This document shows, in pieces, positions 41,089 through 64,000 of a stretch of 64,000 bases of DNA. Source of the stretch: Fulvivirga ligni (GTDB taxonomy: Bacteria > Bacteroidota > Bacteroidia > Cytophagales > Cyclobacteriaceae); NCBI RefSeq assembly GCF_021389935.1, contig NZ_CP089979.1, forward strand, positions 4,507,001 to 4,571,000, given 5' to 3'. Position numbers and translations under genes: made by a program. The first letter of the stretch is position 1; every line of letters starts with the position of its first letter. The notes under the pieces are model-generated. The model was not told the origin of the DNA, ran no database searches, and worked only from the letters and a program-made list of their open reading frames with translations.

Positions 41089-41134
41089 TACGCAATAAAA
41101 AATCTTAAATAGTTGCATTTACTTACCTGAGGTT

Positions 41135-41278: not shown

Positions 41279-44200
41279 CTATTCTTTTTTGAAAGTTCGG
41301 GAATAGAGATGACCATCTTCACCAGCTACCCTTAGGATGTAAAATCCTTCTTTTAAGGATCCAATGGATAAAGTGAAGAAACCACCTACTCCATTACCTT
41401 TAAGTATGGTTCGGCCATTGGTATCTATAATCTGATAGCTAATATGGCCGTCAGCATCGGTTGCTCTAACATTCAACTGATCATTCACCGGATTAGGATA
41501 AAGGATTAAATCTTCACTATCTTCATCGAGAGATTCAGATACATCAACCGCCGCTTTTCTGGCGCCGTTGCTTGTGCCATACCCCATAATACCATAACCG
41601 TACTGGAATAATGGATTACCATAAATAGGCTCAATATGCTCACCGGCAGCAATTTTAGCCTTGATCTCCTGAATTTCTGAAGAGGATGCTCCAAGGTCAT
41701 AAGGAATGTCCCATCTTTCATTGGCCTGACTAAGATTATCAAGGCCGATCTGATCCATTGAGCGAGGTAGCTGCCAGGGCAATCTTCCTTTAGGTGCAAA
41801 TTCACCAAATAATACGTCAGCCACGGCTGGGCCTCCACCATCACCTGGTCGATAGGCGATTAATACCGCATTGGCATCAGCCACAAGATCAGTGAGCACA
41901 TAAGGACGAGGCATTATAACTACCACTATGTATGGGATGCCCATCTGTTTCACATTATTTAAAGTAGTCAGATCATATTCATAGGTATTTGAAATTGGAT
42001 AATATGCATCATGAACATAGGGCTTTTCCTTATCCCAGGCCGTACCATGGGTATATGAGGGCTCACCTAAGATTACTACGGCAGCGTCAGGGTTAGGCGC
42101 ATCATTGAGATAAGCATTGATGCCTTTGGAAGCTGCTTTAGTATTAATAGACTCCCACATGGTTTTTGCACCATACTCATCATGGAAATAGCTGGTCCAT
42201 ACAGAATAGCTTTCACCATTATCAGCTCGTGAACCTGTTACTAGTAAATTAGACCCTGAAGGCAAATCAAGTGGCATAGTACCATCATTTTTGATTAAGT
42301 TCATTGCCTCTTTGGCAGCTTGAGTGGCTATACCAATGTGTTCTGGTGTGAACCATGTGTCAGGACCATTTTCAGGATCTCCGTAAGGATCTTCGAAAAC
42401 ACCTAATTTAAACTTGGTGGTTAGGATTTTCTCTAAGGCTTCATTAATTCTGTCCATGCCCACCTCATTGATAAAACCTTGCATGCTAAAGCCTGCGGCA
42501 CCTGGGTCTGCGCCCCCCATCACATCTGAGCCCGCTAATGCAGCTTTAGCCCACACGCCAGATGGAAGCCAGTCTGTGCAGATAATTCCTTCAAATTTCA
42601 CCACTTCTCTCAGGTAGTCTAAGATAGGCTTGCTATCTCCTGCTCCAGATCCTCCCGGGTCAAGAAAAGAGCTACCAGCGTAGCCTGGCATAACACTGCC
42701 CGCCCCGGCATCTACATTGGCGAACCATGGCTTCATATGATATTTGATGCTCACCCCATCATACACAATGCCTGCCTCACCTCCTGCTCCTTCGCCTGGC
42801 CAATGTTTGGTGGTAACCATCACAGAATTAGGGTTTAACTCTGGACCAGCCTGCAGTCCGCAAACCATGGCTCTTACCATAGCAGCGGCAAAGTCGGCAT
42901 CCTCTCCACAACCTTCCTGAATGCGAGGGTAAAGCACTTTTGTCCCTACCTCAGCCAATGGCGCCAAAGTACCTCTGAAACCAACTGCCGTTTGCTCTAC
43001 TCGCTGCATATTACCGCATTGTCTGGTTAACTCAAGGTTTCTTGAAGCCGCCAGGGCACTTTGAGTAGGATATGTGGTGCTGTAACCATGAATACAATCA
43101 CCGGCAGAAACGAAAGGAATTCCTAAGCGAGTATTAGCACTGGCCTTTTGCTTGTTAAACATATCCGACACTGTACCTGGACCGAAGGCCCAGCCAGAAA
43201 GAGGGTAATTTTGAGCATTATAGAACATTTGATATGCCTTCTCCTCATTGTTCATACGGGACATAAGGTCGGCCACCCTTACAGCGATAGGCTGACGCCA
43301 ATCTTCATAAGGCTCGATAGAACCATTTTTATTCATATCTCTATTCCCATTGATCAGGTTCACATTATCTGCCACCTGCTCTACCTGTGGTAGATAAACA
43401 CTAAACTGACCTACATCGGAATAGGTAAGCCCAGATCCAGATTTTGCTACGATATACCATTTATAGGTCCATCGGTCAGATAAAGGCTGCTGCAAAGTGT
43501 AGCTAGTAGAGGTCACTTCACCCATTTTTGTAAAGCGATCTAGCAGGCTCCCCCATTTGTACCAATCATAATCTGTTCTGGTAATATTCACCCAGACCTC
43601 ATAGCTGGTGGCACCAGGGCTGGCGTTCCACGACAGTTGCGGGGTACGAGTGGTAGTGATCATAGCGCCATTATTTGGGCCAATTACAGTAAAAGTAGAT
43701 GGGCCGGGCGGCACAGGGTCTGGATTCGGATTGGGATTAGGATCAGGCCAATCTCCTGGTCCGCTTCCGGGTGAGTACACTTCAAATTCAAACAGAGAAT
43801 AGCTCCATTGCGAGTTTCTTTCTATCCCTTTCATCCTGATATATCTGCCCGCTCCGGATACTAACAGATCATCAGTGCGAGACTCAACTGGCAAACCATT
43901 TTCATTGAATTCATACAAGTTCTGCCAGCTGGCATCATCATCAGAAACTTGCACTTGATAATGCTTCGCACTGGCTGCTTCCCAATGTAGAATCACTCTG
44001 CCAATTTGATATTTCTGTCCTAGATCAATTCTAATCCATTCATCATCAGTGAATTCACTTTCCCATCGAGACCCAATATTACCATCTACAGCCTGAGAAG
44101 GTCCATTAACAGACCCTTCTTTAGTTGAAGAGGCTGTTACTGGTAAAGAAAGTGCCAGATTTCCAACTCCAACTACCCCATCGTCAGGGTTATTATTGTC

Positions 44201-45379
44201 CTCGGTAGTAAAAGTTACAGGTACACCAGAGGATTCATTACCAGCGGCATCTTTAGCTTTAACTAAATAAGTATATTGAGTACCTGGGTTTAATCCACTG
44301 ATGGTCATAGAATTACTACTGCCATCAACTGTAGCTTTTAATGATGAGCCTTCGTAAATGGTGTAGCTGCTTACGCCAACATTATCAGTTGCCGCTGACC
44401 AATTGAGCGTTACGGCATATACAGCAGCACTGGCAGTAACATTTCCAGGATTAGATGGCGCCTGAGTATCACCTCCTCCACCAGTATTTTCACCGGCAAA
44501 CACCCTCATCTCCCAAAGAGAATAACCATATCCTGTGCCTCGAGATACACCTTGCATCCACAAGTAACGGCCTGAAATAGAAGAGTTTGTATTAACTTGA
44601 TCCGTTCCACCATCGCCATTGGAAACACTAGCTATATTCTGAGCGCTGCCGATGTCAGTACTATTTCCTAGTAGGATGTTATAGGCACTGCCGAAAGCAG
44701 CCTCCCACACCAGCTCCACCTGACAAATATTTCTAGCCTGTCCCAGGTCAACTCTGATCCATTGATTATCAGAAAACTCACTGCTCCACCTGGTTTGTGC
44801 GCTACCATCAAAGGCACTTGAAGCAGTAAATGCTCCTTCCATAGATGAGGCTACCGCCGCACCATTTAATGCTACATTATTACCACCACAATCACCATTT
44901 CCGCCAGTATCCGGAGTACCATACACTTCTATTTCAAAGAATGAGTACCCCCATGGATGCAACTTGTTATAGCCATAAACGGCGATATATCTACCAGCAC
45001 CAGCAAGGCCTGTAAGATTGTCTGTACGTTCGGTATCAGCCATTCCCGTTCTCTGGGCCAGCACCGTCCAGGTAGATGGATCAGGGTTTGAATTAGAGTT
45101 AGAAGTAAGTATGTAGTAGCTCTCTGCGCTTGCCCTTTCCCAATTCAACAATACACGGTTGATGTTAAAGGATTCTTGCAGGTCAATTTTTATCCATGAC
45201 GGACTTTCATAGGCTGACGCCCAACGCGTGGTGGCATTACCATCTACAGCACTGGTAGCTACAAAAGGCTCTTGAGTGGTAGAAGATGTGACAGGTTTAT
45301 TTAAAGCAATATTCTGAGCCTGAACCACATAAAAGTTAAAGCATACCCATAGACAAAATAGGTATTGAATGCTTTTCAT
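41279..45379 (-). CDS. GH3 beta-glucosidase with three CBM32/F5-8C domains, T9SS-secreted
   Basis: 1366 residues, extracellular. Signal peptide; CBM32 (about 23-154); CBM32 with Cys pair (about 164-296); FN3 (307-392); CBM32 (406-536); Pro/Asn linker; Ig-like domain (562-662); then GH3. Catalytic signs: KHW (K858-H859) with PGEG, and the nucleophile D936 in GIICTDWLPSG. The GH3 C-terminal sandwich runs to about 1260 and the T9SS sorting domain (LYPNPVNDQLN, final about 75 residues) ends the chain. It should release glucose from oligosaccharides made by the neighbouring endoglucanases; exact linkage specificity is inferred from context. Confidence 0.9.
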   Translation of the reverse strand: MKSIQYLFCLWVCFNFYVVQAQNIALNKPVTSSTTQEPFVATSAVDGNATTRWASAYESPSWIKIDLQESFNINRVLLNWERASAESYYILTSNSNSNPDPSTWTVLAQRTGMADTERTDNLTGLAGAGRYIAVYGYNKLHPWGYSFFEIEVYGTPDTGGNGDCGGNNVALNGAAVASSMEGAFTASSAFDGSAQTRWSSEFSDNQWIRVDLGQARNICQVELVWEAAFGSAYNILLGNSTDIGSAQNIASVSNGDGGTDQVNTNSSISGRYLWMQGVSRGTGYGYSLWEMRVFAGENTGGGGDTQAPSNPGNVTASAAVYAVTLNWSAATDNVGVSSYTIYEGSSLKATVDGSSNSMTISGLNPGTQYTYLVKAKDAAGNESSGVPVTFTTEDNNNPDDGVVGVGNLALSLPVTASSTKEGSVNGPSQAVDGNIGSRWESEFTDDEWIRIDLGQKYQIGRVILHWEAASAKHYQVQVSDDDASWQNLYEFNENGLPVESRTDDLLVSGAGRYIRMKGIERNSQWSYSLFEFEVYSPGSGPGDWPDPNPNPNPDPVPPGPSTFTVIGPNNGAMITTTRTPQLSWNASPGATSYEVWVNITRTDYDWYKWGSLLDRFTKMGEVTSTSYTLQQPLSDRWTYKWYIVAKSGSGLTYSDVGQFSVYLPQVEQVADNVNLINGNRDMNKNGSIEPYEDWRQPIAVRVADLMSRMNNEEKAYQMFYNAQNYPLSGWAFGPGTVSDMFNKQKASANTRLGIPFVSAGDCIHGYSTTYPTQSALAASRNLELTRQCGNMQRVEQTAVGFRGTLAPLAEVGTKVLYPRIQEGCGEDADFAAAMVRAMVCGLQAGPELNPNSVMVTTKHWPGEGAGGEAGIVYDGVSIKYHMKPWFANVDAGAGSVMPGYAGSSFLDPGGSGAGDSKPILDYLREVVKFEGIICTDWLPSGVWAKAALAGSDVMGGADPGAAGFSMQGFINEVGMDRINEALEKILTTKFKLGVFEDPYGDPENGPDTWFTPEHIGIATQAAKEAMNLIKNDGTMPLDLPSGSNLLVTGSRADNGESYSVWTSYFHDEYGAKTMWESINTKAASKGINAYLNDAPNPDAAVVILGEPSYTHGTAWDKEKPYVHDAYYPISNTYEYDLTTLNNVKQMGIPYIVVVIMPRPYVLTDLVADANAVLIAYRPGDGGGPAVADVLFGEFAPKGRLPWQLPRSMDQIGLDNLSQANERWDIPYDLGASSSEIQEIKAKIAAGEHIEPIYGNPLFQYGYGIMGYGTSNGARKAAVDVSESLDEDSEDLILYPNPVNDQLNVRATDADGHISYQIIDTNGRTILKGNGVGGFFTLSIGSLKEGFYILRVAGEDGHLYSRTFKKE

Positions 45380-45527: not shown

Positions 45528-48305
45528 CTACTCTTTTATAAATCTTAAGGTTGTAGTAGATGAACCTTTCACTCTGATCATATACACACCAGGACGAAGC
45601 TGACTTACATCTAGAGTGATTTGCTTATCATCCACCTTATGGGTCATCATTTGCTTGCCTGATAAAGTAAGGATTTCCACCTGATCACCTGATTTAAAAT
45701 CGGCAAGCTGAAGGTGTAGCTCCTGATCTACCGGGTTTGGATATAACTGTGCCTGAACTGGAGTTTGGTCACTCGCTTTTCTGGCACTCGCTCCCTGTGA
45801 TGCTCCGAATACTTCCATTTCCCAAAGAGAATAGCCGTAACCAGTACCTCTGCTTATTCCTTTCATCCATACATAACGGCCAGAAATAGCTGAATTAGTG
45901 GATACTTCATCAGTACCTCCATCTCCATTATTTACAGTAGCTATTACCTGTGAGGCATTAATATCTATATTATTTCCAAGCCTGATCTCATAGGCTGAAC
46001 CATAAGCAGCTTCCCACGATAGATTCACTTTACAAACATTGTAAGTGCTTCCTAAGTCTACTCTTATCCATTCGTTATTAGTAAATGAACTTCCCCATCG
46101 GGTATTTCCATTTCCATCTACTGCGCTAGAGGCTGTAAATGGTCCTTCAGCTGAAGAAGAGGCTGCCGCTTTATTTAAGGCGATATTCTGCGTTCCGCAA
46201 TTTCCTGGATTCGGATTATTGCCCGCGCTTCCATATACTTCCATTGAGAAAATAGAATAACCATAAGCCGTGTTTCTTACTGTGCCATACACTCTCACAT
46301 ATCTTCCTGAGCCAGATAAGCCGGTAAGATCATTTGAAGTACTGGTATTATTGGTCACCGTTTTAATGGTTTGCCAGTTGTTTGCATCAGTAGAAACCTG
46401 AACCTGATAGTTCTTTCCTAAAGCTGTTTCCCAAAGGATGATTACTCTGTTAATGTTGTAGGTATTTCCTAAGTCCACATAAATCCACTGAGGATCAGAA
46501 TATTCACTCTCCCATCTGGTTTGAGCATTATTGTCAAAAGCGTTATTAGCACCAAACGAGCCTACTACTGAAGAGGCCGTCCCTGGTCTGTTAAGAGCTA
46601 GATTAGCATTACTGCCATTCACTGTTACAGAAACAGAGCTCTCTGCGGTAGCACCCCCATTATCAGTAGCTACCACTCTCACCTGATGAACACCTGCACT
46701 AACGTTATTCCACTGATAAGTGTAAGGTGCGCTATTATCTGTGTGAAGCAGCTGGTTTCCATCATAAAAAGATACCGATGTGATATATCCTCCTTCTGAA
46801 TCTGAAGCGTTAGCAGCTAGCGCAATACTGGCCGGAGCAGAATAAGTTTCTACACCCGTAGGAGAAGTAAGGGCAACAGCAGGACGAGGGTTGAAATTCT
46901 GACCATTGGAATATACTCTCACCCAGTCAATATATACATCTACCGGGAAAGTAGCCTGATCTACAATAGGACCACCATAAGTCTGGCCTCCGCCACCAAC
47001 ACCGGCACTTAGAATAGCATACATTTTATGTTCGAATGGGTGCCATTCTGAAAAGAGATTAGAAAACTCTGAAACCATAACTCTTCTACCATTAATGATT
47101 TTGATGTTCTCTTCATTTTCACCGTCTAAGGCAAAGCCGTCACCATCATTAAAATAATGGATGTGGTATACGTTACCGTCAATAAAGAACTCAATTCTAT
47201 CATCAAACCAGTCTATACCGTACTCATGCCAGTTATTGGAGCCCACGTTCGGATCATTAGTCGGTGCAGGTGAGCAACACTGATATTGAGGATTTCTCAA
47301 AGCACTGCTCCATCTGGTGCTGGCACTTCCATCCACGGCGTTAGAAGCGGGTAGATCACTAGCTTGTAGTGACGAAGCCATAGCAGGTCTGTTTAAGGCC
47401 AGGTTTCCTGTATTTGGTCCATATACTTCAAACTCAAATATTGAATATCCCCAGGCGTTAGATCTTCTGGTGCCATACATTCTAACGAATCTGGCATTAA
47501 CAGACCCGAAAGTAATTTCATCGATGCCACCATCTCCATTAGCTGTGGTGTGAACGGTATTCCAATTAGTACCATCAGTAGAAGTTTGAATAGCGAATGT
47601 TCTACCAGTATTTTCCCAGTTGATCACTACTCTATTCACTGCTCTTACTAAACCTAAATCTACCCTCAAGTATTCAGGACCATCAGGCACCTGTTGTTCT
47701 TCGAAACTGTAATAACCACCATGGTGACCGTGGTTCCACTCTGCCCATTCGTTATTATTCCAGTCCCACGCATAGTGCACAGTTCCCAAATTATACCTTG
47801 GAATTGAGCCTACATATTCCATAATATCAATCTCACCACCTTGAGGCCAGCTGATAGTGCTTTCTCCAGGGCGGGTTTCGTCGGGCATCATCCAGAAGGC
47901 AAAGCCCTGCCCCATGGTTCGCACATCTTGCGGCCACACTCTGGCAACGATTCTATGATTAGGTCCCCAGGATGCTTTACCTGCGGTATTAATTCTACCA
48001 CTGGTATACTGTCTGTCCATGAAATTTTCCTTTCTGGTGGTAATGCGAAGGGCACCACCATTAGCCCCAGAAATACCTTGCTCGATAGCCACATTTTCAG
48101 GTCTGTCTGTGGCCCTGTCCAGCTGACCAGTACCCCAGTCACCATTTACTCCTGTGCCTGTTTCATAACTCCATTTACTTAGGTCCAGGCTTTGACCATT
48201 AAATTCATCACTCCAGATGAGCTGCCATTGTTGTGCGGACGCACTGAGGCTGCCAAAAATTAGGCATAGCAATACTAGTACACCTTTTGGTTTTAGGTTA
48301 TCCAT
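45528..48305 (-). CDS. GH16 beta-glucanase interrupted by a permuted CBM32, T9SS-secreted
   Basis: 925 residues. Signal peptide; GH16 first part (about 26-205) with WSDEFNG and the catalytic GGEIDIMEY (E158, D160, E163); an inserted F5/8C (CBM32) domain in circularly permuted order (about 207-341); GH16 second part resuming at NNWHEYGIDWFDDRIEFF (about 357-465) and ending VDVYIDWVRVY; Ig-like domain (about 473-565); CBM32 (about 567-690); Cys-containing CBM32 (about 698-830); T9SS tail (LYPNPVDQELH). Endo-beta-1,3-glucanase (laminarinase) is the likely activity. It is the third minus-strand gene transcribed after GH81 and GH16-GH128. Confidence 0.9.
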   Translation of the reverse strand: MDNLKPKGVLVLLCLIFGSLSASAQQWQLIWSDEFNGQSLDLSKWSYETGTGVNGDWGTGQLDRATDRPENVAIEQGISGANGGALRITTRKENFMDRQYTSGRINTAGKASWGPNHRIVARVWPQDVRTMGQGFAFWMMPDETRPGESTISWPQGGEIDIMEYVGSIPRYNLGTVHYAWDWNNNEWAEWNHGHHGGYYSFEEQQVPDGPEYLRVDLGLVRAVNRVVINWENTGRTFAIQTSTDGTNWNTVHTTANGDGGIDEITFGSVNARFVRMYGTRRSNAWGYSIFEFEVYGPNTGNLALNRPAMASSLQASDLPASNAVDGSASTRWSSALRNPQYQCCSPAPTNDPNVGSNNWHEYGIDWFDDRIEFFIDGNVYHIHYFNDGDGFALDGENEENIKIINGRRVMVSEFSNLFSEWHPFEHKMYAILSAGVGGGGQTYGGPIVDQATFPVDVYIDWVRVYSNGQNFNPRPAVALTSPTGVETYSAPASIALAANASDSEGGYITSVSFYDGNQLLHTDNSAPYTYQWNNVSAGVHQVRVVATDNGGATAESSVSVTVNGSNANLALNRPGTASSVVGSFGANNAFDNNAQTRWESEYSDPQWIYVDLGNTYNINRVIILWETALGKNYQVQVSTDANNWQTIKTVTNNTSTSNDLTGLSGSGRYVRVYGTVRNTAYGYSIFSMEVYGSAGNNPNPGNCGTQNIALNKAAASSSAEGPFTASSAVDGNGNTRWGSSFTNNEWIRVDLGSTYNVCKVNLSWEAAYGSAYEIRLGNNIDINASQVIATVNNGDGGTDEVSTNSAISGRYVWMKGISRGTGYGYSLWEMEVFGASQGASARKASDQTPVQAQLYPNPVDQELHLQLADFKSGDQVEILTLSGKQMMTHKVDDKQITLDVSQLRPGVYMIRVKGSSTTTLRFIKE
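47283..47687 (-). other. Circularly permuted CBM32 insertion within GH16
   Basis: Residues 207-341 of the GH16 protein. The segment begins with what is normally the middle and end of a CBM32 (YLRVDLG to FEFEVYG) and continues with what is normally the start (NLALNRPAMASS to DGSASTRWSS), ending NPQY. Joined end to start it is one complete domain, cut just before the conserved VDLG strand. GH16 sequence resumes immediately after. Confidence 0.75.
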
Positions 48306-48486: not shown

Positions 48487-51400
48487 TTATTGTTTGATAA
48501 ATCGCATGATCTTTTTCTGCGATCCACTTACCCTAAGCATATATACCCCAGGGTTTAACTGACTGATGTCAATGCTGATCTGACGAGACTCCAAAGGTTT
48601 GTTAATCAATTGCTTACCCTCCAATGAAAGGATATCAATCTGATCACCAGCTTTAAAGTTCTCTACCTGTAAATTTAATGTTTGATTCGCCGGGTTCGGG
48701 AATAGGTTTACATCAGATGAAATCATGTTATCATCGGTAGATGTTCTTGCAGATACAGTAAATGATGCTGCTCCTCCATAAACCTCCATTTCAAATAATG
48801 AATATCCATAAGGAAGGGCTCTGGTAATTCCTTTCATCCAAAGATACCTGCCCGTAACACCACTATCAGTGCTTACCTCATCTGTGTTGCCATCACCATT
48901 TGAAACCGTAGCGATGACTTGAGAAGCGTTAATATCCGTGCTGCTTCCTAAGCGAATTTCATAGGCTGAACCATAGGCTGCCTCCCAGTGAAGCATCACC
49001 TTACAAACTGAATAAGTATCGCCAAGGTCTACTCTAATCCACTCATTATCAGCGAATCCACTACCCCAACGGCTTCCCATGTTGCCATCAAAAGCATTGT
49101 TAGCCGCAAATGGCCCTTCCGCTGATGACGCTACTGCCGTTTTGTTCAAGGCGATGTTTGTAGTTCCACAACCTACAGGAGCACTTGCTACTGTCACATT
49201 CACTTGTGATGCAGGACTATTTGCTGCACCATCGTTCACTACCAGGCTGAAAGTGTACGTATTTCCGGCAGAAAGTCCGGTAACGTGTGTAACTGCAGAT
49301 GCAGGACTTACGATAGTCGCAGAAGGTCCACCAGTTTGCGTCCCGCTGTAGCTTAAAGCAGAAGGTCCACTATCAGGATCGCTGCTGGCTGTGCCATTCA
49401 AGGTAGCTGAGGTAGCCGAAGAGGCCAATGATTGATTACTTCCTGCATTAGCTACTGGAGCCTGATTCACAGGACCAGAATTACCATACACTTCAAACTC
49501 CCACAATGAATAACCCCATGGATGAAGTTTATTGGTACCAAACATGGCAATATATCTACCTGAACCACTTAAACCAGTAAGTTCATCTATTCTGGCAGCA
49601 TCTGCCATTCCAGTTTTGGTAGAAATAATTGTCCAGTCACCACTGTTAGGGTCTGGCGTGCTGTTGGTGTTACTCACCATAACATAATAACTTTCAGCGC
49701 TGGCTCGCTCCCAGTTAAGTACTACTCTACTAATGCTGTAAGTTTGCCCCAAATCAATTTTGATCCATGATGGACTTTCGTAGGCACTTGCAAATCTGGT
49801 TTGCGTATTACCGTCATTAGCATTACTGGCAATGTATCCTCCTTCCACTGTTGAAGCTGTAGCCATTTTATTGAGTGCCAGATTATCCCCAGAAGGCTGA
49901 CCACTCACTGTAACCTGACTTTCAGCAGTGTCAGAAAGCTGTCCATCGCTTACTGTTAATACTACAGTATAGTTTCCGGCTGTGCTATAAGTATGAGATG
50001 CGGTTATGCCCGAGGCGGTGTTTCCATCACCAAATGCCCAATTATAGGTAAGGTTATCACCATCAGGATCTGTAGAGTTGGCAGCATCAAAACTAACAGT
50101 TAGGGGTGCTTGCCCGCTAGCGTTATTAGTGGTAAAGGCAGCAGTTGGCGCCTGGTTAGAGGTACCTGATCCGCTAACATCAAAATAGTTAATGTTAAAT
50201 CCTCCATTTGCAGATACTAATCTGATGGTATGATTTCCTGTAGGAATAGAAACGGTAGCAGTTACATCCACCCAGGTTTGCCATCCACCAGTTGCTCCAA
50301 ATGAAACGGTTCCTTGCTGTGCTCCATCCACCAAAACATTGATAGTGCCACCTTCAGATTCACTAGCCACACGGAAGTCAATGTCAAAAGCTCCACCAGT
50401 AGTAGCGGTTACTGAATACTCCATCCAGTCTCCAGCCTCTATTTCAGAGATATTTAAGAAGCCTTCCGAATCTTCAGTAAGCTGTGGTCTGATGCCACTC
50501 ATAGCAGCATAATCTTCTGCTTCAATTAAGCCAGGAACCTCATAATAAACTGAAGGGTCATGCACTGGCATGTTTACATAAATTTGTCCTACTTCTGAAA
50601 GTACACCTTGCTGCGGCTCAAATAAGCTCATGTATGGCGCTCCCTGATGACGCGCAATAAACCAGGCATACTTCTCTACATCTGGATCATTTTCTAAATA
50701 ATCCACTGAATGCACCATATATGCTTTCTGATCTTCCACCGTAGGATTGTTTTCCCAGTTACAAAACTCTGTAACCCAGATAGGTAAGTTATACTTTTTG
50801 AAAAGACCAACATACCATTCAAAAGCTCCCACCGTACCCATATAAGAGTGGATAGAGATAGCATCTACCTGACAATCCTGGCAAGCAGCGAAGAAATCAT
50901 CTAAGTATTCGATAGGATCATAGTAGGTAGTACCATTTTCTGTGACACAATTACCACAGAAGTTCATGGCCGGGCTCACAATTTTAATGTTAAACTGATC
51001 TGCAATAGCTTCTAATCTTGGCCACTCGGCAGCAGCTTGAGAAGGAGTCATATTCGCCTGTTCCAGGAAGTTAGGCTCATTCCAACCTAAAATATATTCT
51101 GCCTCTGGGTGATTCGAGAGCCAGTTGATAATCTGCTGCTCATTCACACCACCGTTCCAGGCCATTGGCACATAATCCACACCATAATTCAGGTGGATAT
51201 CGCTTACATTATTGCTTGGCTGAGTACCCCAGTTATACCACCAGCTAATTCCAGGTGCTAAAGCAGCAAGATCAGCCTCAGTAATGTTATTTGCTCCTAC
51301 ACCTCTCTTGGTGCTTTTTACAACACCATAGTTATCCTTTACGAAAATGGCATAAGTAGCAGTAGATGAAGTAGCACTATCGGCCACTGTTAATGTTACA

Positions 51401-53520
51401 GTATAACTACCGTTTTGAGTAAATGTATGATCTGCAGTAATACCTGTGGCTGTGCTACCATCACCAAAATCCCAGGCGTAAGTTAAGGCATCACCATTCA
51501 CATCATAAGACTGACTGGCATCAAAACTTACAGCTAAAGGTGCAGGACCACCTGTGGTAGAGGCTGAAATAGCAGCCACCGGCGGTCTGTTGATTGGAGG
51601 CTGATCCGTACCTGGATCATCCGCAGCTTCTCCACCTGAAAAGTAAATATTATCAATAGCAATATTGCTGATTTCAGAAGTTCCTAAAAGCTGGAATAAC
51701 TGAGCCATGTTCATAAGGTCTAAATCACCAGCAAGTTGCTGTGAAACGGGAATAGTAATCTCATGCCACTGGCCATCTCTGGCAAAGCCATAAGGATCCT
51801 GACCGTTTCTAAACCATATCCATTTTTGGCCTACATTATCAACATTGCCACTTTTCATTCCTACTCTAAAGTCTTCTGTAGAGGTAGTTTTCATTGAAAA
51901 ATGGAATTCCCCATTAGGGTTATCAAATGCAGATAAGTTATAAGGTACTCTCGCAGTAAGCCCTAAACCATACCATCCTTTGCCTGTAGACTGGAATGAT
52001 AATGCAGAATTTCCTTCAGCTGGTGTGGAAGGAATAGTTTCCAAAGTGCTCTCCCAAATGAAAAGATCACCATTCACACCAAAACCAAATGATCCAGCAG
52101 TCTGATTTTCAGCTGTTTCTGTATATACACCGAAGCTTCCATACTCTGGTGTAGGTAATGCAATGCTTTCTGACCAATAAATATCATCAAAAGCGATATC
52201 CATGTCGGCTCCAGGATCATCTCCACTGGCAGCAAAGAGCATTTTCACGGTATTGAAATCTACATTGCTAAATTTGTAAAGAGGAATTGCTACCTCATGC
52301 CACTGTCCATCTCTTACCAAACCATATTGCTCGGCACCATCTAAAAGATCAACACCTGAACCATCGGCACCCGTACTGGCTATGCTTATAGCAATCTTAC
52401 CTGTATAGGTGGTTTTGCATTGAAAATGTAGATATCCGTTTTTGTAGTACTGCATATTTTGGTCAGCGGAATTGATGCCCATACCCCACCAGCCACCAGC
52501 AGGAACTGTGTAAGCCAAAACACTTCCACCTTCTGCAGGATCTGTAGAAGTAGTGGTCATGTTATTCCAGATGTATAAGTTTGTGCTGGCATCTCCGAAG
52601 TTTAAAGACTCATTCACATTTGTAGTTTCAGTGAATATGCCGAAGTTGCCTCTGTGAGCCAGTTCCTCACCCAAAAACATCTCTGTGTATTCGTTCTCAT
52701 ACAATCTCACATAATCCACATACATTTTTCCTGGGAAAGGAGCAGTAATCTGAGCAGGATCAGTGATTTCTACAAAGTTAAAACCACCCACAGCCAGGTT
52801 CATGATAATGTAGTTAGGATTATGAAATTCTGACAAGTTAGGATCAGTAATATCCATGGTGAAATATTCGATATCATCAATACTGATAACGATCTCTGAA
52901 GGAGTCCATTCGCACTTAAATGAATGATAGTCCTCATAAAAGTTAGAGCTTATGGTGGTATGATCAGAGAAATCTGCCTGAAGCCAGTCACTCCAGTCAC
53001 CTGACTCATGCCACCAGTGAAGTGCTGCTGAAACGGATTTATTCACTGTACCATCATCAATGGCTGCTTTATAACCTACTTCCAGAATATCAGTTTCGCC
53101 ACATTTCGGCCATCCCACTTCACCGAAGTTACTCCCCATCATCCAGAAGGCAGGCCATAAACCGTTGGCCACATCAGGAAGTTTAATTCTGGCTTCTAAT
53201 GTTCCATATTTAAAAGCAAACTTTCCTAAAGTTCTTAAACGAGCAGAGGTAAACTGCTTGCCTTCATAGTTTTCTCTCCTGGCAGCAATCACCAGATTAC
53301 CATTTTCAATGTAAGCATTGTCCGTAGAGGCGGTGTAAAATTGTAATTCCCCATTACCATTTCCACTTCCCCCTGTGTTAAATGACCAGGTAGACTGGTC
53401 TACGGTGGATCCGTTAAATTCGTCGGACCACACCGGATCCTGGGCTTGCGCTGTCATAAAACAGAGCCAGCTGAGCCCAAGAAGTAGTAGTTCACGTTTA
53501 CCAAGTTTAGTTTTTGTCAT
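48487..53520 (-). CDS. Bifunctional GH16-GH128 beta-1,3-glucanase, T9SS-secreted
   Basis: 1677 residues. Signal peptide; GH16 (about 28-275) with GETDILE (E142, D144, E147); two related beta-sandwich modules (about 285-450 and 458-628) sharing YG(L/F)xRDGQWHE; PKD (about 645-728); GH128 (about 735-985) with acid/base E815 in GWNEPN and nucleophile E918 in WVTEFCNW; CBM6 (about 998-1125); PKD; CBM32; REJ/PKD-like; CBM32 with Cys pair; T9SS tail (LFPNPANQTLN). GH16 and GH128 both cut internal beta-1,3-glucan bonds, so one chain carries two unrelated endoglucanase folds. The gene lies between the GH81 and GH16 genes. Confidence 0.92.
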   Translation of the reverse strand: MTKTKLGKRELLLLGLSWLCFMTAQAQDPVWSDEFNGSTVDQSTWSFNTGGSGNGNGELQFYTASTDNAYIENGNLVIAARRENYEGKQFTSARLRTLGKFAFKYGTLEARIKLPDVANGLWPAFWMMGSNFGEVGWPKCGETDILEVGYKAAIDDGTVNKSVSAALHWWHESGDWSDWLQADFSDHTTISSNFYEDYHSFKCEWTPSEIVISIDDIEYFTMDITDPNLSEFHNPNYIIMNLAVGGFNFVEITDPAQITAPFPGKMYVDYVRLYENEYTEMFLGEELAHRGNFGIFTETTNVNESLNFGDASTNLYIWNNMTTTSTDPAEGGSVLAYTVPAGGWWGMGINSADQNMQYYKNGYLHFQCKTTYTGKIAISIASTGADGSGVDLLDGAEQYGLVRDGQWHEVAIPLYKFSNVDFNTVKMLFAASGDDPGADMDIAFDDIYWSESIALPTPEYGSFGVYTETAENQTAGSFGFGVNGDLFIWESTLETIPSTPAEGNSALSFQSTGKGWYGLGLTARVPYNLSAFDNPNGEFHFSMKTTSTEDFRVGMKSGNVDNVGQKWIWFRNGQDPYGFARDGQWHEITIPVSQQLAGDLDLMNMAQLFQLLGTSEISNIAIDNIYFSGGEAADDPGTDQPPINRPPVAAISASTTGGPAPLAVSFDASQSYDVNGDALTYAWDFGDGSTATGITADHTFTQNGSYTVTLTVADSATSSTATYAIFVKDNYGVVKSTKRGVGANNITEADLAALAPGISWWYNWGTQPSNNVSDIHLNYGVDYVPMAWNGGVNEQQIINWLSNHPEAEYILGWNEPNFLEQANMTPSQAAAEWPRLEAIADQFNIKIVSPAMNFCGNCVTENGTTYYDPIEYLDDFFAACQDCQVDAISIHSYMGTVGAFEWYVGLFKKYNLPIWVTEFCNWENNPTVEDQKAYMVHSVDYLENDPDVEKYAWFIARHQGAPYMSLFEPQQGVLSEVGQIYVNMPVHDPSVYYEVPGLIEAEDYAAMSGIRPQLTEDSEGFLNISEIEAGDWMEYSVTATTGGAFDIDFRVASESEGGTINVLVDGAQQGTVSFGATGGWQTWVDVTATVSIPTGNHTIRLVSANGGFNINYFDVSGSGTSNQAPTAAFTTNNASGQAPLTVSFDAANSTDPDGDNLTYNWAFGDGNTASGITASHTYSTAGNYTVVLTVSDGQLSDTAESQVTVSGQPSGDNLALNKMATASTVEGGYIASNANDGNTQTRFASAYESPSWIKIDLGQTYSISRVVLNWERASAESYYVMVSNTNSTPDPNSGDWTIISTKTGMADAARIDELTGLSGSGRYIAMFGTNKLHPWGYSLWEFEVYGNSGPVNQAPVANAGSNQSLASSATSATLNGTASSDPDSGPSALSYSGTQTGGPSATIVSPASAVTHVTGLSAGNTYTFSLVVNDGAANSPASQVNVTVASAPVGCGTTNIALNKTAVASSAEGPFAANNAFDGNMGSRWGSGFADNEWIRVDLGDTYSVCKVMLHWEAAYGSAYEIRLGSSTDINASQVIATVSNGDGNTDEVSTDSGVTGRYLWMKGITRALPYGYSLFEMEVYGGAASFTVSARTSTDDNMISSDVNLFPNPANQTLNLQVENFKAGDQIDILSLEGKQLINKPLESRQISIDISQLNPGVYMLRVSGSQKKIMRFIKQ

Positions 53521-53600: not shown

Positions 53601-56600
53601 TTATTGTTTTTGAAATTTATAAACTCCTTCCCTACCTATAATCTGAAGTAGATAGAGGCCAGGTTGTAGGCTTTGTACATTAATTAAAGTTTGTTTAGCA
53701 CCTTCTGCCGATTGGCTAATCACCTTTTTACCATCCATTGAAATCACTTCCAGCACATCTCCCACTTGCATTTCAGGGTGGAAAACATGTAGCGTAGAAG
53801 TAACTGGATTAGGATAAATCATAACTTTATCATCAGTCATCTGATCACCAGCTGTTCGAGCGGCCGCACCCGTAACGGTGCCCCAGCTGAATACCTCCCA
53901 GCCTCCTATGGCTCCTCGGTTGCAGTTCATGGCGGCTCCGCCATTTTCAGAGCTCACATAAAGATTGTTGCTGCCTCTTAAAGCCACAGAAGAACTTCCT
54001 TGAGAAACCCAGGCAAATCTGGTATTGGCAGACATGCTGGTAGCGTTACAATACATTGGGCTGGTGGCCGTTACGTACTGACCATTAGAACCACGAAGTG
54101 CAACCAGTCCACCACCGGCATCTACAACAGTAAACTGCTCCCATCCTGCTACACCTCCACGATCACACATCATAGGTGCACCGCCATTTTCAGAAGACAC
54201 ATAAAGGTTATTACTACCTCTTAACCAGATAGTTGCTCCGATGGGAGCTCCTGAATTGTTTCCGCTTTGTACCGTAATTACCTGAACCTCATTGTCACTT
54301 AATTGTCCATCCGAAACTGTTAAGGTGGCGTTATAGCTTCCTGCACCACTATAAGTGTGAGATACTGTTTGTCCGCTTGCTGTAGATCCATCTCCGAAAT
54401 TCCAATTATAGGTGAGTGGATCATTGTCAGGATCTGATGAGCTGCTACCATCAAAGCTTACAGTAAGTGGTGCATTTCCACTATTGGTGCTCACCGTGAA
54501 ATTTGCCGATGGCGCATTATTTTGAGAAGTGCCGCAAGTGGTGCCACATACATCAAATTCAAAAATAGAGATACCATAAGGATGCAGCTTATTGGTAGCA
54601 TACATCGCCACATATCTACCACAACCGCTGAGACCAGCAATATTATCGGTTCGTGCGGCATCCGCCATTCCGGTTTGAGTGGATATAATATTCCAGTCAG
54701 CACTGTTGGGATCCGGGGTGCTGTTTACATCAGAAACCATAATGTAATAGCTCTCTGCCGAGGCTCTTTCCCATATTATGCTCACTTCAGAAACATCATT
54801 TCTTGAGCCCAAATCAACCTTCAACCACTGAGGTATTGAGAACTCCGAGCTCCATCTTGTACCCTGATCACCATCAATAGCGTTAGCCGCTGTAAATGCT
54901 CCTTCCTGAGAAGAAGCAGAAGCTCCACTTAGAGTAATGCCATCACATCCCTGGGGTTGCGACTGCATTGTAATGGTTACATCATCATAAGCACTATTAG
55001 CATCATTATCAGTAGCCGACAATCTAAACACATAAGTTCCTGCCACTAAACCTGTTACCTGAGTTGTTGCAGATGATGGGCTGGCAATATTGGCTGCAGG
55101 ACCGGAAACTTTGGTCCAGTTATATGATGTGATGCTACCATTATCTGTAGCTGATCCATTTAAGGTTACAGTGTTGGTAGGTAGCGTAACGGTCTGGTCG
55201 GGGCCTGCATTAACCACCGGAGCTGGATTATTACCAATTTTAGAATTGTAATACTGCTTAGGACCAACTGTAACTGTTTCAATGACAGCTCCATTTTGAT
55301 AGATATTTACATTCTTGCTGGAGCTGGTGTAATTATATACCAGAACTGAAAGTTCACCATTGGCATCTTGAAAAACTCCACCTGTAGCCAGACTGGTATG
55401 ATAGCCTTCTGCCGGTAAGCCGTAGGTTAAGCTGGCATTAGAAATATAATAGTTAGTAGCTGAATTTACATGGGTAGCCCAATCTCCACCTTCTTGGGTA
55501 ATGAGCTGATCATAGGTAGAAGCAACAAAGGCAGGGTCATAGGATTGGATATAATTCAAATGATACCCTCCCAGATACGGTCCCATCTCCACGATATTGG
55601 CATAAGGGTCAGTAGTACCGATCTCACCAAACTCTACTCTATCCTGCACCATGGCACTCCAATCACTAGCGGCCTTGGCTGGCTCTCTACCTAGATAGTA
55701 GCTATAGAAAAAGTCAGCCGGAACAGCCTGAATACCGAACGCCCAGGCAGGATCTCCATCAAAGAAAGTAGCCATGGCCATGTTATTAGCTTTCAGAATA
55801 CCCACATAATCAAAGGCATATTCATCTGGCATATCACCATTTCTATCAAACCAATAATCTTGCGTGGTGATCCCCTCCAGCATAAAACCAGTGGCTCCGA
55901 GGCTGAGTATCTCATCATCTTCTAAGGCTATACCTAGCAAATAAATACCAAACCATGAATGCATAGCTTCTGAAGTAGACTCCTGATTATTACCATCTAC
56001 ACCACTGCCAATACCTCCAGCCCAACTATGGCCAGCATAAGGATCAAAGTTTCGTAAAAATGGCTGTCTATCCGTGTCATTCACACCATAGCGTTTCCAG
56101 TTAGCATAAGACTTGGCTACTTTTATTACCATGTCACCATATTGGTTTTTGAAGTCCTCGTCAACCATCATTAAACGAGCAGCACCAGTGATAAAATAGC
56201 CATAGTGGAAGTGTAAATCATTGAAAGCCTGAGAACCAAAACCTACAGGAAAGCCTATTAAAGCACCAAACTGAGGATATTCTGCAAAGAAATAACGACC
56301 AGCACCAGACTCTGAGGTTGTGAATGTTAACCAATTGATAAGTTCTTGCTTTATATTATTCTTAATGGTCTCATAACCAGGATGCTGCAGTTCTTTAGCC
56401 ATCAGCATAATGTTAGACTCCTCACCAAATCCTTTAGCGTAGGTATTGCCATTATAATCTTCAGACACATTGATTTTCGCACTTAAGAGATCATTCAATC
56501 TTTGCTGCTGTGTGCCATTTAAATCCAATGGTTTTGGTAGATAAGGAGGCATTCCTCCAAATTGATAGGTAAGATTGAAATTTTTACCCTGTGTTGTATG

Positions 56601-58109
56601 CATAGTGCCATACATGGTTTCATAGTCAGCCCCTCCTATGAGAGAATAGCCACTGGTATTTCTGTAATGATGTGGCTGTAAGGCCAATAAGGTTTCACCA
56701 CTCTGAGAGCCCGTTTCATAATTGGCTGTATTAAATTGAAAAGTGGTGGTGATATTTCCACCTGCCTGATCATAATTCCAGTTGAAAGTAGAGGCCGTTA
56801 TCTTGTTTCTTGAAAAGTTATCATAGGTGGATATTAATGATTGAGATGGAATGGCAGAGATGACCACGTATTTTGGAGCACCAGCTGGGATTACAGGTAC
56901 ATAATTACCTGCGGGTGATTTTTCAAATACAGTACCGTTAGGTGCATGTATACCGAACAGCTTGCCCTCCACAGCCACCACCAGTGTGTTACCATTATAA
57001 GGAAATGAGCTGACCGCTGCACCAGTACCTGTATATTCATCAGTAGCATCAGAGCTGGTTTCGATAATTGGGTCAACTTCATTTAAATCTATGTAAGTGT
57101 ATGGCACACCATGATACACTGAACCATCCATGTAATGAGACTGATCATCTTCTAATCTAAAGACAAATCCCAGGTCTGACCAATCATAAGCTTTAGCATC
57201 TTGGGGCCAAAAGCTATTAGAAAAAGAACTGCTCACATCAGGACTGTTGCTGAAAACTATATTATCACACAAGGTAAACCCCCAGCCACCAGAGCTAGCA
57301 TCTACAATTCTTATTTGAGCCGCCTGACCTATATAGGCTGATACATCGAAGCGCTTCCATTTTAGATTAGCACTGTTCTCACCTGTCTCGGCTAATACTC
57401 GGTTGCCATTGATGTATAGGCCCAGGTAATTCAAGTCAACATTGTTGCCTCCACCCAGCAGAAAATGGATATAATTCTTTGTAATGGTAAAATTAGGTGA
57501 CGTCAAGGTCATTTGTGGTCCATCACCTTTATAGGTATTGATAAATCTATCTCCTAAAAATCCCTGCGGTGTAGGTGATTGAGTGAAGTCTGCCAATGAC
57601 ACCGGACCTGGATAAGGAGGGTTTGCAGAAACCGACCAACCAGCCGGATAGTTACTTGATTCAAAATCTGCAAATATTTCCGTATCTCCTGATTGATTGA
57701 GATCCACTGATCCCTTCACGGTAATGCTTGCACCATATATTACTGACAAACCACGTGAGTCAAACATAGCAAACGATTGCGGCAATGACACTTTAATACC
57801 GTTTGCAGTTCCTTCTACACGCTGAGGCCATACCTCAAGGTTACCAGTATATTGATCGAAAATTGTAGCGGTCCACCAATCATTGGTAGGTATAGGAGCA
57901 GATTGTTTGTTGGGGTGTATATGCCATGGCCAACCATCGGATAATTCGCGATAGGTTTTGCCGTAATAAGCGCCCTCATCCCAGACACTGGAGGGTGGAC
58001 TATCAGCAAAACTACCAGAACCAAGACCAACCGGACTTTGTGCATTTACATTGATAAAAGAAATTAAAGCCAACCACAACAGTAAAAGTTGTGTATTCCT
58101 TTTAATCAT
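53601..58109 (-). CDS. GH81 endo-beta-1,3-glucanase with inserted domain and beta-trefoil, T9SS-secreted
   Basis: 1502 residues. Signal peptide; GH81 from about 40 to 960 with APIPTNDWWTATIFD, HFHYGYFITGAARL, NFDPYAGHSWAGG and the catalytic-glutamate block GNNQESTSEAMHSW. A DUF4980-like beta-sandwich (about 143-288) is inserted in the N-terminal GH81 sandwich. After GH81: PKD/REJ-like, CBM32, PKD, a fascin-like beta-trefoil with two near-identical LRGSNNLYVSSENGGA repeats (about 1292-1414), and the T9SS tail (IYPNPVTSTLH). Hydrolyses internal bonds of insoluble beta-1,3-glucan. First gene of the minus-strand cluster, divergent from a second GH81 gene. Confidence 0.92.
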   Translation of the reverse strand: MIKRNTQLLLLWLALISFINVNAQSPVGLGSGSFADSPPSSVWDEGAYYGKTYRELSDGWPWHIHPNKQSAPIPTNDWWTATIFDQYTGNLEVWPQRVEGTANGIKVSLPQSFAMFDSRGLSVIYGASITVKGSVDLNQSGDTEIFADFESSNYPAGWSVSANPPYPGPVSLADFTQSPTPQGFLGDRFINTYKGDGPQMTLTSPNFTITKNYIHFLLGGGNNVDLNYLGLYINGNRVLAETGENSANLKWKRFDVSAYIGQAAQIRIVDASSGGWGFTLCDNIVFSNSPDVSSSFSNSFWPQDAKAYDWSDLGFVFRLEDDQSHYMDGSVYHGVPYTYIDLNEVDPIIETSSDATDEYTGTGAAVSSFPYNGNTLVVAVEGKLFGIHAPNGTVFEKSPAGNYVPVIPAGAPKYVVISAIPSQSLISTYDNFSRNKITASTFNWNYDQAGGNITTTFQFNTANYETGSQSGETLLALQPHHYRNTSGYSLIGGADYETMYGTMHTTQGKNFNLTYQFGGMPPYLPKPLDLNGTQQQRLNDLLSAKINVSEDYNGNTYAKGFGEESNIMLMAKELQHPGYETIKNNIKQELINWLTFTTSESGAGRYFFAEYPQFGALIGFPVGFGSQAFNDLHFHYGYFITGAARLMMVDEDFKNQYGDMVIKVAKSYANWKRYGVNDTDRQPFLRNFDPYAGHSWAGGIGSGVDGNNQESTSEAMHSWFGIYLLGIALEDDEILSLGATGFMLEGITTQDYWFDRNGDMPDEYAFDYVGILKANNMAMATFFDGDPAWAFGIQAVPADFFYSYYLGREPAKAASDWSAMVQDRVEFGEIGTTDPYANIVEMGPYLGGYHLNYIQSYDPAFVASTYDQLITQEGGDWATHVNSATNYYISNASLTYGLPAEGYHTSLATGGVFQDANGELSVLVYNYTSSSKNVNIYQNGAVIETVTVGPKQYYNSKIGNNPAPVVNAGPDQTVTLPTNTVTLNGSATDNGSITSYNWTKVSGPAANIASPSSATTQVTGLVAGTYVFRLSATDNDANSAYDDVTITMQSQPQGCDGITLSGASASSQEGAFTAANAIDGDQGTRWSSEFSIPQWLKVDLGSRNDVSEVSIIWERASAESYYIMVSDVNSTPDPNSADWNIISTQTGMADAARTDNIAGLSGCGRYVAMYATNKLHPYGISIFEFDVCGTTCGTSQNNAPSANFTVSTNSGNAPLTVSFDGSSSSDPDNDPLTYNWNFGDGSTASGQTVSHTYSGAGSYNATLTVSDGQLSDNEVQVITVQSGNNSGAPIGATIWLRGSNNLYVSSENGGAPMMCDRGGVAGWEQFTVVDAGGGLVALRGSNGQYVTATSPMYCNATSMSANTRFAWVSQGSSSVALRGSNNLYVSSENGGAAMNCNRGAIGGWEVFSWGTVTGAAARTAGDQMTDDKVMIYPNPVTSTLHVFHPEMQVGDVLEVISMDGKKVISQSAEGAKQTLINVQSLQPGLYLLQIIGREGVYKFQKQ
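57246..57683 (-). other. DUF4980-like domain inserted in GH81
   Basis: Residues about 143-288 of the first GH81 protein. The pattern ADFESSNYPAGW, LTSPNFTI, YIHFLLGGG, RIVDASSGGWGF is that of a sandwich domain known from the N-termini of Bacteroidota GH32 enzymes. GH81 sequence is continuous on both sides (SVIYGASITV before, DAKAYDWSDLGFVF after). The second GH81 here lacks it. Confidence 0.6.
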
Positions 58110-58780
58110 GAGTATAGGTTTAGGTGTAGCGTTGTATCAAAAACCTAAAAGTTTATAAGCACTTCTTCGGTTTTAATAAATACAGTTTGCAAGCTAGTTG
58201 GAAAAGAGGTGGATTCCCATTTTTGACATATAACAACTACGTATCACACGTATAACAAACATGTAACAGTATTTTCATAATCCTCTGAAAATTAAGACTA
58301 TGACAAATTATAGAGGAGAAATTAACCTTAACAGCAAACGATTTCTAAAAAAACATTTGGAAGATGTAACTCAGCATCCTATTTAAATATTATTTAATAT
58401 TTAAGATTATATTTAGGTATTTTAATACTTTAATATTTAAAATAATAAATGAATTAATTATATAATCAGCTTGAAAATTAACATTTAAGCTTTATATTTG
58501 ATTCAAGCATTGAAAATTCATTCGTTCTTTTGTGTCTAATATCTCTATTTGGCTGAACATTAGCTGTATAGGTCCTCCTAGGGCAAAAGAGTACTTTCAT
58601 GATGTAAAATAATCTCCCCTAACTGGCTGTTAAGGCCTATTTTGCACAAGTATGAAGTATTTTTGTAGAGGTTGTAAGGTTGGCTACGATGAGTTATTGT
58701 AGTACGCTATCTCTTTTTTAAACCTTTTGGATGTCCGACCTTGGTTCTTGATTTTAAGTTCAACCAAACCTAAGGAATCA
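58110..58780. promoter_or_regulatory. Divergent promoter region of the two GH81 genes
   Basis: 671 bp with no credible ORF. It holds a 12-base direct repeat TTTAATATTTAA (58393-58404 and 58429-58440) with a third partial copy at 58421; the first copy is half of the inverted repeat TTAAATATT-N4-AATATTTAA. A plus-strand promoter lies at 58471-58500. The AT-rich stretch suits binding by a transcription activator, plausibly the propeller regulator. Confidence 0.5.
58471..58500 (+). promoter_or_regulatory. Bacteroidota-type promoter for the GH81-CBM56 gene
   Basis: TTG (58471-58473), 19-base spacer, TATATTTG (58493-58500) fits the -33 TTTG / -7 TAnnTTTG consensus. It would give a leader of about 275 nt. 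A second -7-like box TATTTTTG is at 58658-58665 without a well-spaced -33. Confidence 0.45.
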
Positions 58781-63177: not shown

Positions 63178-63218
63178 AAAGGTAAATGAGGAGCTTGCTC
63201 CTCTCCTTACCTTTTTTT
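63178..63218 (+). terminator. Terminator of the GH81-CBM56 gene
   Basis: AAAGGTAA-N2-GAGGAG-CTTG-CTCCTC-N3-TTACCTTT hairpin followed by a run of seven T, 15 bp after the stop. GH64 translation starts only 19 bp later, so GH64 either relies on read-through or has a promoter overlapping this region. Confidence 0.75.
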
Positions 63219-63236
63219 CACTTAAACCTAAATCCA

Positions 63237-64000
63237 ATGAAAAGTAACGTTTACAAACCAACAATCAGAGCTTTGAAGGCTCTTGTTTTTGGGCTTCTAC
63301 TATTGTTTGGCAATGCAGCTATTGCACAGACATTGCCCTATCAAATCACTAACAATTCACCATATTCCGACAGCGAAGTATATATTGGAATTGTTGGTAT
63401 TACCGATGGCCACGTATGGGTAGACCCTACTAACGGCCAGGTTCACCCAATGAGTCCTTCTTACAATAACGTACCAGGACCTGTGTATGGTGGTAATCAG
63501 GGCCCGGGAAACAATGGCCTTTATGCTAACTGTTTCAGAAAACTAAGTGACATACCTAATCGCACTATCAACATACCGAAGATAGCCGGTTGTAGGATCA
63601 TGATCTCTTTCCAGAGCCAGCTATACCTCTATTTCTTCGGTCATTCCGGAGCACCAAGTGGGTATTCGGCGCCAAACCTGGAAAACCCTACTGACCCTAA
63701 TCAAGGTATCAAATACGAATTGGTAGAACTTACCTATAATGACTACGGTCTGTGGTGTAACACTACCAGAGTAGATAATTACCAATACCCAATGGGTTTA
63801 GAAGTATGGGGTAATGGTTTCTACAAAAAAGTAGGCGAGCTAAAGTCTCATCAGCAAATATTGTCTGAGTGGCAAGCCACAGCACCTTCTGAATTCCAGG
63901 GACTACTGAAAAGTTCTGAAGGAATCATCCAGTTTCCAACTAAAAACCCATCATTCCCAACCAACTTCTTCCAGGGATATATAGATGCCATCTGGAGCAA
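63237..64000 (+). CDS. GH64 beta-1,3-glucanase, truncated by window end
   Basis: Open frame from ATG 63237 to the window edge (254 complete codons, no stop). Signal peptide (MKSNVYKPTIRALKALVFGL, then LLLFGNAAIAQ). GH64/thaumatin-like features: LPYQITNNSPYSDSEVYIGI, NRTINIPKIAGCRIMISF, YLYFFG, YELVELTYNDYGLWCNTTRV with DNYQYPMGLEV. GH64 enzymes release laminaripentaose from beta-1,3-glucan. The catalytic Glu lies in the visible part (candidate in ELTYND). Expected 3' parts (further GH64, CBMs, T9SS tail) lie outside. Confidence 0.9.
   Translation, partial: MKSNVYKPTIRALKALVFGLLLLFGNAAIAQTLPYQITNNSPYSDSEVYIGIVGITDGHVWVDPTNGQVHPMSPSYNNVPGPVYGGNQGPGNNGLYANCFRKLSDIPNRTINIPKIAGCRIMISFQSQLYLYFFGHSGAPSGYSAPNLENPTDPNQGIKYELVELTYNDYGLWCNTTRVDNYQYPMGLEVWGNGFYKKVGELKSHQQILSEWQATAPSEFQGLLKSSEGIIQFPTKNPSFPTNFFQGYIDAIWS

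Follow-up and report, generated by a model that had tools for sequence, protein, structure and literature searches.

Montanier reportedly showed in 2010 that circular permutation links two calcium-dependent families of carbohydrate-binding modules (CBMs), CBM36 and CBM60. A permuted module made by engineering, RoCBM21 CP90, binds more tightly, according to the available part of its description (PMC3511584). Modules placed inside catalytic domains are also described: the accessible text of one report (PMC7848910) gives CBM4 inserted in Xyn10C-type xylanases of glycoside hydrolase (GH) family 10 and CBM58 inserted in SusG of family GH13. For the Paenibacillus GH16 enzyme LamA, the C-terminal F5/8C (discoidin, CBM32) domain binds laminarin and chitin, as stated in the available portion of PMC2789033. 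Here, we analyzed a window of 64,000 nucleotides from Fulvivirga ligni (contig NZ_CP089979.1, positions 4,507,001 to 4,571,000) and focused on one gene, at 45528–48305 of the reverse strand, which we infer from homology and locus to encode a secreted GH16 β-1,3-glucanase. Sequence, relatives and predicted structure concur in supporting a complete, circularly permuted CBM32 nested within its GH16 catalytic domain.

The 925-residue protein runs from a signal-peptide-like start through the GH16 domain with its nested CBM32, a Big_7 domain and two ordinary CBM32s to a type IX secretion system (T9SS) tail. The catalytic motif GGEIDIMEY occupies residues 156–164 (E158; 47814–47840, reverse strand), and the E, D and E of this motif are invariant in all five rows of alignment A3. 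The loop flanked by GGYYSF and WHEYGIDW contains 133 residues (209–341) that separate the two GH16 parts; the GH16 chain resumes at residue 342, with NNWHEYGIDW from 357. An earlier note on this DNA had placed a CBM32 interruption of the GH16 chain at 47283–47687 (reverse strand), and these coordinates are exact, being residues 207–341 of the open reading frame (ORF). The catalytic domain is otherwise complete around the insert: 28 uninterrupted relatives align on both sides, and in alignment the host domain is 59–63% identical to four uninterrupted relatives. The Pfam GH16 match covers residues 356–382 of the 925, which makes it easy to misjudge how far the catalytic domain extends, and automatic annotation may misplace it.

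A phmmer search against PDB chains aligned both halves of the insert with the same Paenibacillus CBM32, in reversed order, matching residues 210–296 to 4zy9 47–137 (independent E-value 3.5e-22) and residues 300–335 to 4zy9 7–42 (1.4e-4). A CBM32 profile of 125 positions was built from 38 ordinary CBM32s, which a sequence pattern had picked from the fetched loci, and every rotation of each of 16 nested inserts (that of the window and 15 from other genomes) was scored against it. As it stands, the window insert matches profile positions 39–125 (98.5 bits) and then 1–41 (38.2 bits). Its best rotation begins GPNTGNLA and yields a single match over 1–125 at 143.6 bits, in keeping with the earlier suggestion that the old ends are fused through GPNTG. 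The same holds across all 16 inserts, where positions 38/39 to 124/125 come first and 1 to 39–41 second, and where the best rotation starts at the old N-terminus or a few residues before it and gives one match over 1–124 or 1–125 (136.0–160.3 bits). The usual linear order NLALN-TRW-VDLG-EVYG is violated in every one, so phmmer, profile and relatives agree on the rotated order, VDLG part first, that had been read from the letters. Two to three profile positions at a P-x-[YWF] motif are duplicated, being present at both insert ends. Since all CBM32 sequence blocks (profile 1–125) are present in the window insert, albeit rotated, two incomplete half-domains are ruled out. One locus that had matched across the GH16–CBM boundary in an earlier search (L048) turned out to be an ordinary CBM32.

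Structure prediction drew on alignment A4, made up of 16 nested and 28 uninterrupted rows plus 15 tandem CBM32 fragments. Thirty uninterrupted rows had been prepared; L042 and L043 were omitted because their contigs are those of L064 and L059. A single-sequence AlphaFold2 run gave a predicted local distance difference test score (pLDDT) of 33.3 and was discarded in favor of the A4-based model, in which both domains fold (mean pLDDT 82.8; predicted template modeling score 0.75); unfolded half-domains, an outcome that the earlier note had named as refuting it, did not appear. By ten-residue blocks, pLDDT is 74–97 within the insert and 55 at the right junction; low GH16 blocks are residues 21–40 (66 and 46), 151–170 (63 and 50) and 411–420 (56). 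In Foldseek the first 19 rows are laminarinases or β-1,3(4)-glucanases (probability 1.00), several of them aligned across the insert with TMt values of 0.77–0.85. That laminarinases align across the whole model indicates that the GH16 fold closes around the insert. The best 50 rows of this search, which was made with the whole model, contain GH16-type folds, and the fold match therefore concerns the GH16 domain and not the permuted CBM32.

The same junction occurs in 15 further genomes, seven of 79 in Chitinophaga and eight of 144 in one gammaproteobacterial family, and the translation of each of the 16 nested rows was inspected. When GTDB contigs were scanned with GH16 alignment A1, at least 498 loci were confirmed, of which the best 80 were kept. 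Among these 80, four are nested (L049–L052) and 22 belong to the same GH16 subfamily without insert (L053–L074); of the 54 more distant GH16 loci, inspected by eye, 53 have no insert at the loop and one (L112) is cut by a contig end. Draws from the genus, family, order and class of carriers used profile A3 with E up to 1e-60. The genus of G487 takes its name from Chitinophaga pinensis (L049); of its 79 genomes eight match, seven with full-length nested copies and G492 with an uninterrupted one. The gammaproteobacterial family of G490 supplied full-length nested copies in the eight genomes already counted. The order and class of G490 gave one match each (1/194 and 1/274), both being G490. The family of G487 gave one nested copy in 294 genomes and four partial, uninterrupted-type matches (three of the four read; L146 excepted), and the window's own family one in 295, the window genome itself. 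Protein queries were also run against 98 relatives and against 395 genomes from the phylum, and the matches listed included no further nested copy. In one genome of the Chitinophaga group (G525), a nested copy occurs along with an uninterrupted paralogue from the same GH16 subfamily (L142/L143), which offers a natural comparison. The patchy distribution, and a host domain 80% identical to that of one copy from the G487 genus, suggest that the window's lineage acquired the gene by horizontal transfer.

Of 54 CBM32 domains, 45 entered a tree; all rows of L051, L140 and L148 were dropped as near-duplicates, which left 13 of the 16 inserts. There the permuted inserts form one clade (support 96/98; 96% of 200 bootstrap trees), separate from the CBM32s that these proteins carry at the C-terminus. 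Ratios of nonsynonymous to synonymous substitution rates (dN/dS) were sought for 17 chosen pairs and were computable in 11 for the insert (0.011–0.145) and in 11 for the host (0.011–0.073), the others being saturated at synonymous sites. Related inserts are under purifying selection in the 11 computable pairs. In 16 of the 17 pairs dN is higher for the insert than for the host; the insert thus evolves faster, yet under clear constraint. These results bear on whether the architecture is an assembly error, or a recent rearrangement between similar CBM32 copies, several of which do lie within about 15 kb of this locus. The window genome is a single contig and the same junction recurs in 15 other genomes, which share the architecture at 60–75% identity; neither chance nor misassembly explains this. 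With the inserts forming a clade apart from the C-terminal copies, and with selection acting among the relatives, we give the artefact practically no weight. The homologue search that the earlier note had proposed thereby came out in favor of a real insertion at one fixed point, and the junctions shared by independent genomes speak against the misassembly that the note had named as a refutation.

Relatives without the insert preserve the empty site. In one example (L058) the uninterrupted GH16 loop reads QAPIENPGYGGYPPEENDP, and in one gammaproteobacterial nested row the site reads GPDEPEW-[insert]-RNPGYGGYPP. P-x-[YWF] stands at the insertion site in 25 of the 28 uninterrupted relatives (the remaining three have P-x-Q), and the right-hand P-x-Y is therefore native to the GH16 host loop. 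At the matching point, ordinary CBM32s have W in 38/38, an aromatic there having been demanded by the pattern that picked them, with P two residues before the W in 25/38. The left-hand aromatic is the CBM32's own residue and corresponds by spacing to W1688 of the W-R-W triad of LamA, as given in the available text of PMC2789033. The earlier note had taken P-x-Y motifs at both ends as the trace of a second CBM32. The two motifs are indeed present, but the right-hand one belongs to the GH16 loop and need not stem from a second CBM32, and the pair is better explained as one motif from the host and one from the CBM. A second CBM32 as the necessary cause of both was rejected, the right motif being found in the empty host loop; a tandem CBM32 pair is nonetheless plausible as the source.

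The right junction has further fixed features. Residues LRNP beside it are invariant in 16/16 inserts. Directly after the insert, the segment YQCC (residues 341–344; 47274–47285) places adjacent cysteines in all eight carriers made up by the window and the genus of G487; at this position the eight carriers from Gammaproteobacteria read G-[GN]-Y-P, and a comparable glycine-rich turn is found in most empty relatives. Judged from the residues, a vicinal disulfide at the right junction is possible.

We propose that recombination took place at the P-x-aromatic motif that the GH16 loop shares with the CBM32 chain, where it directly precedes the VDLG strand. A single unit from a tandem CBM32 array, either directly or as an excised circle, would have entered the loop, most likely once. 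Entry at a shared motif would account for both the rotated order and the P-x-aromatic at each end. An array segment and an excised circle yield the same observed product and are indistinguishable; recombination at the shared motif is the simplest origin in either case. The insert would then have been inherited and passed between Bacteroidota and Gammaproteobacteria. In the working enzyme, which is expected to hold a β-1,3-glucan chain while cutting it, the nested module would be tethered by its binding end, and a face turned toward GH16 could extend the substrate-binding surface, with the ordinary C-terminal CBM32s presumably anchoring the enzyme to cell-wall material. Capture of a permuted CBM32 at a shared motif, with its sugar face aimed at GH16, is in our view the best explanation from architecture through working, and we lean toward it with modest confidence.

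Several observations weigh against this account. Alignment A4 contains 15 natural tandem CBM32 fragments in rotated order, which help the AlphaFold2 model, so that the model is not independent of the permutation reading, and the Foldseek root-mean-square deviation over the whole alignment is high (4.0–11.4 Å in the first 19 rows). Both pairs that include the window were saturated, so the dN/dS values concern relatives and not the window's copy. The host tree (44 rows) splits the nested rows into two clades, each with support 100/100, between which stand seven uninterrupted Bacteroidota rows (85–86/70–73), and 0% of 200 host bootstrap trees join the nested rows. Two separate insertions at one recombination-prone P-x-aromatic site, one in Bacteroidota and one in Gammaproteobacteria, would explain the two changes that this tree asks for. 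However, the inserts themselves are a single clade with identical breakpoints and two shared substitutions (Q14 and L36, below), and a single host clade, imposed after two long rows were dropped, is 9.9 log units worse but not rejected (approximately unbiased test, p-AU 0.15). Two independent gains appear improbable on this balance. The split in the host tree could stem from a single gain followed by precise loss, from movement of the insert between hosts, from an error in the tree or from two gains; shared breakpoints and the insert clade favor a single gain, and insertion most likely happened once, as far as the sequences tell.

The final points against the proposed account concern the sugar face itself. 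In an ordinary CBM32 the native ends lie opposite the sugar-site loops. The available passages of two reports describe a sugar site formed by protruding loops (PMC2789033) and native ends that converge (PMC5651945). Here the cut lies next to the sugar site, away from the native ends, so the sugar-binding end of the permuted module would serve as its tether and be turned toward the enzyme; on anatomical grounds, the sugar face of the nested CBM32 should be directed at the GH16 domain. That this is the functional point of the permutation, with a CBM32 tethered face-first so that sugar site and catalytic cleft make one continuous glucan-binding surface, is a tentative idea that we think rather unlikely. 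Much of the module is conserved: D325 and T330 of the structural Ca2+ site are kept in 16/16 inserts, as are W248 and R275 of the W-R-W triad, whose third position is W in nine, Y in four and F in three (roles from the accessible parts of PMC5651945 and PMC2789033, mapped onto the insert by spacing). Position 36 is Leu in all 16 inserts vs an aromatic in 36 of 38 ordinary CBM32s, and it sits in the loop that is now joined to the GH16 chain. We take E14, R31, residue 36 and E61 to be the sugar contacts of the Paenibacillus CBM32s, names that the spacing of 4zy9 fits. On this numbering the equivalents of R31 and E61 are retained in 16/16 inserts, and E14 is replaced by Q in 16/16. Together with L36, this Q suggests that the nested CBM32 may bind sugar differently or no longer at all.

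The same two fixed changes could just as well mark the sugar face as an internal interface. The nested CBM32 would then bind no sugar and act as a lid or brace for the structure, packing on GH16 through what was once its binding face to stabilize an extended loop or shape the cleft. Fixed changes at one face fit a new interface, as do the invariant equivalents of R31 and E61 and the LRN triplet beside the junction. Yet R31 and E61 are sugar contacts whose full retention speaks against a loss of binding, and CBM32 specificity is held to vary through its loops (available text of PMC2789033), which makes a changed ligand an equal possibility; we regard the lid or brace as unlikely. A third option has the module binding glucan independently, in the manner of CBM58 in SusG or CBM4 in Xyn10C-type GH10 enzymes, the permutation being a historical accident. 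For the nested CBMs of GH13 and GH10 enzymes a largely independent action has been argued, and removal of the CBM4s left catalysis intact (accessible part of PMC7848910); the converging native ends (PMC5651945, in part) would also let either chain order be tethered to a loop. Against independence, the invariant LRNP suggests that the junction itself is constrained, and we consider this option possible, though somewhat doubtful.

Table 1. Features of the GH16 gene and its neighbors (window coordinates).
Feature	Position	Strand	Basis
Whole GH16 gene	45528..48305	-	925-residue ORF; Pfam; NCBIfam T9SS
GH16 catalytic domain, first part, residues 26-208	47682..48230	-	Alignment with uninterrupted relatives; PDB laminarinases; Foldseek
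Nested CBM32, C-terminal portion placed first, residues 209-296, GPEYLRVDLG...EFEVYG	47418..47681	-	Profile 39-125, 98.5 bits; 4zy9 47-137
Linker PNTG between old C and N termini, residues 297-300	47406..47417	-	Sequence; profile match stops and restarts around PNTG
Nested CBM32, N-terminal portion placed second, residues 301-341, NLALNR...TRWSSALRNPQY	47283..47405	-	Profile 1-41, 38.2 bits; 4zy9 7-42
GH16 catalytic domain, second part, residues 342-470	46896..47282	-	Alignments A1 and A4; Pfam Glyco_hydro_16 356-382
Bacterial Ig-like domain Big_7, residues 475-544	46674..46883	-	Pfam, 1.7e-15
Ordinary (non-permuted) CBM32, residues 576-684	46254..46580	-	Pfam
Second ordinary CBM32, residues ~707-833	45807..46187	-	Pfam F5_F8_type_C, three stretches in all; domain list
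Type IX secretion sorting domain, residues 854-919	45549..45746	-	Pfam and TIGR04183
GH3 protein with three F5/8C (CBM32) stretches	41279..45379	-	Pfam
GH16 and PF11790 catalytic core, CBM6, two F5/8C stretches	48487..53520	-	Pfam
GH81 with one F5/8C stretch	53601..58109	-	Pfam
Second GH81, with CBM6	58727..63163	+	Pfam
GH64 β-1,3-glucanase, running off the window	63186..63998	+	Pfam

The surrounding locus (41279–63998; Table 1) is dense, with GH3, two GH16 genes, a PF11790 core, presumably GH128, two GH81 and GH64; five of its genes carry T9SS tails, and a Reg_prop/Y_Y_Y sensor (38074–41118) adjoins it. The combination of GH3, GH16 with the PF11790 core, two GH81 and GH64 fits β-1,3-glucan breakdown. 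Such a setting is not a general rule among carriers: the neighbors in Chitinophaga sp. YR627 are CotH, a nucleotidyltransferase and a weak HPr-kinase match, which give no hint of a glucan locus. In L052, a GH5 gene lies upstream, its CBM6 match falling below the cut-off. Another GH16 enzyme of Chitinophaga pinensis, with an appended CBM6, acts on β-1,3-glucans, according to the available text of PMC10449523.

Nesting and permutation each remodel multidomain enzymes, and here they occur together. Sixteen carriers, relatives with an empty site and the family from which the insert came are all available, so the states before and after insertion can be compared directly. The shared site suggests that a short common motif may let a repeat unit be captured in rotated order, and whether permutation is a means of orienting a CBM can now be put to the test. 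Were face-first tethering true, this would be a natural case of permutation re-aiming a binding module at an active site.

The CBM32s DD1 and DD2 of a Paenibacillus glucanase/chitosanase (4zy9, 4zxe and 4zz5) are of the same CBM family and align with both insert halves; they have the usual chain order and are appended at the enzyme end, whereas the insert here is rotated and nested. The solved GH16 laminarinases (8xph, 6jh5, 4dfs and 4crq) share the catalytic fold and motif (Foldseek E down to 4.6e-15). Glucanase target chains in the first 25 Foldseek rows measure 230–265 residues, except for the multidomain 7ww4/7wwc (479–480), lengths too short to accommodate a nested CBM32 as well as a complete GH16 domain. 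The earlier note knew of no described example of such nesting in GH16, and searches of open-licence papers likewise listed no report of a permuted CBM32, of a CBM nested in GH16, or of nesting and permutation of a CBM combined; in the available part of PMC4981690, permutation occurs only in a reference title. LamA is likewise a GH16 β-1,3-glucanase with a discoidin/CBM32 domain, but one appended C-terminally and not nested, permutation going unmentioned in the accessible portion of PMC2789033. Xyn10C-type GH10 enzymes and SusG are Bacteroidota enzymes with a CBM within the catalytic domain, as here, but the GH and CBM families differ, and the term "permut" occurs 0 times in the available text on them (PMC7848910). 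CBM36/CBM60 and RoCBM21 CP90 are permuted CBMs, as here, but, so far as the partial sources go, the permutation is between families or laboratory-made and comes without nesting in a catalytic domain. Nested CBMs are known and permuted CBMs are known; this enzyme combines the two.

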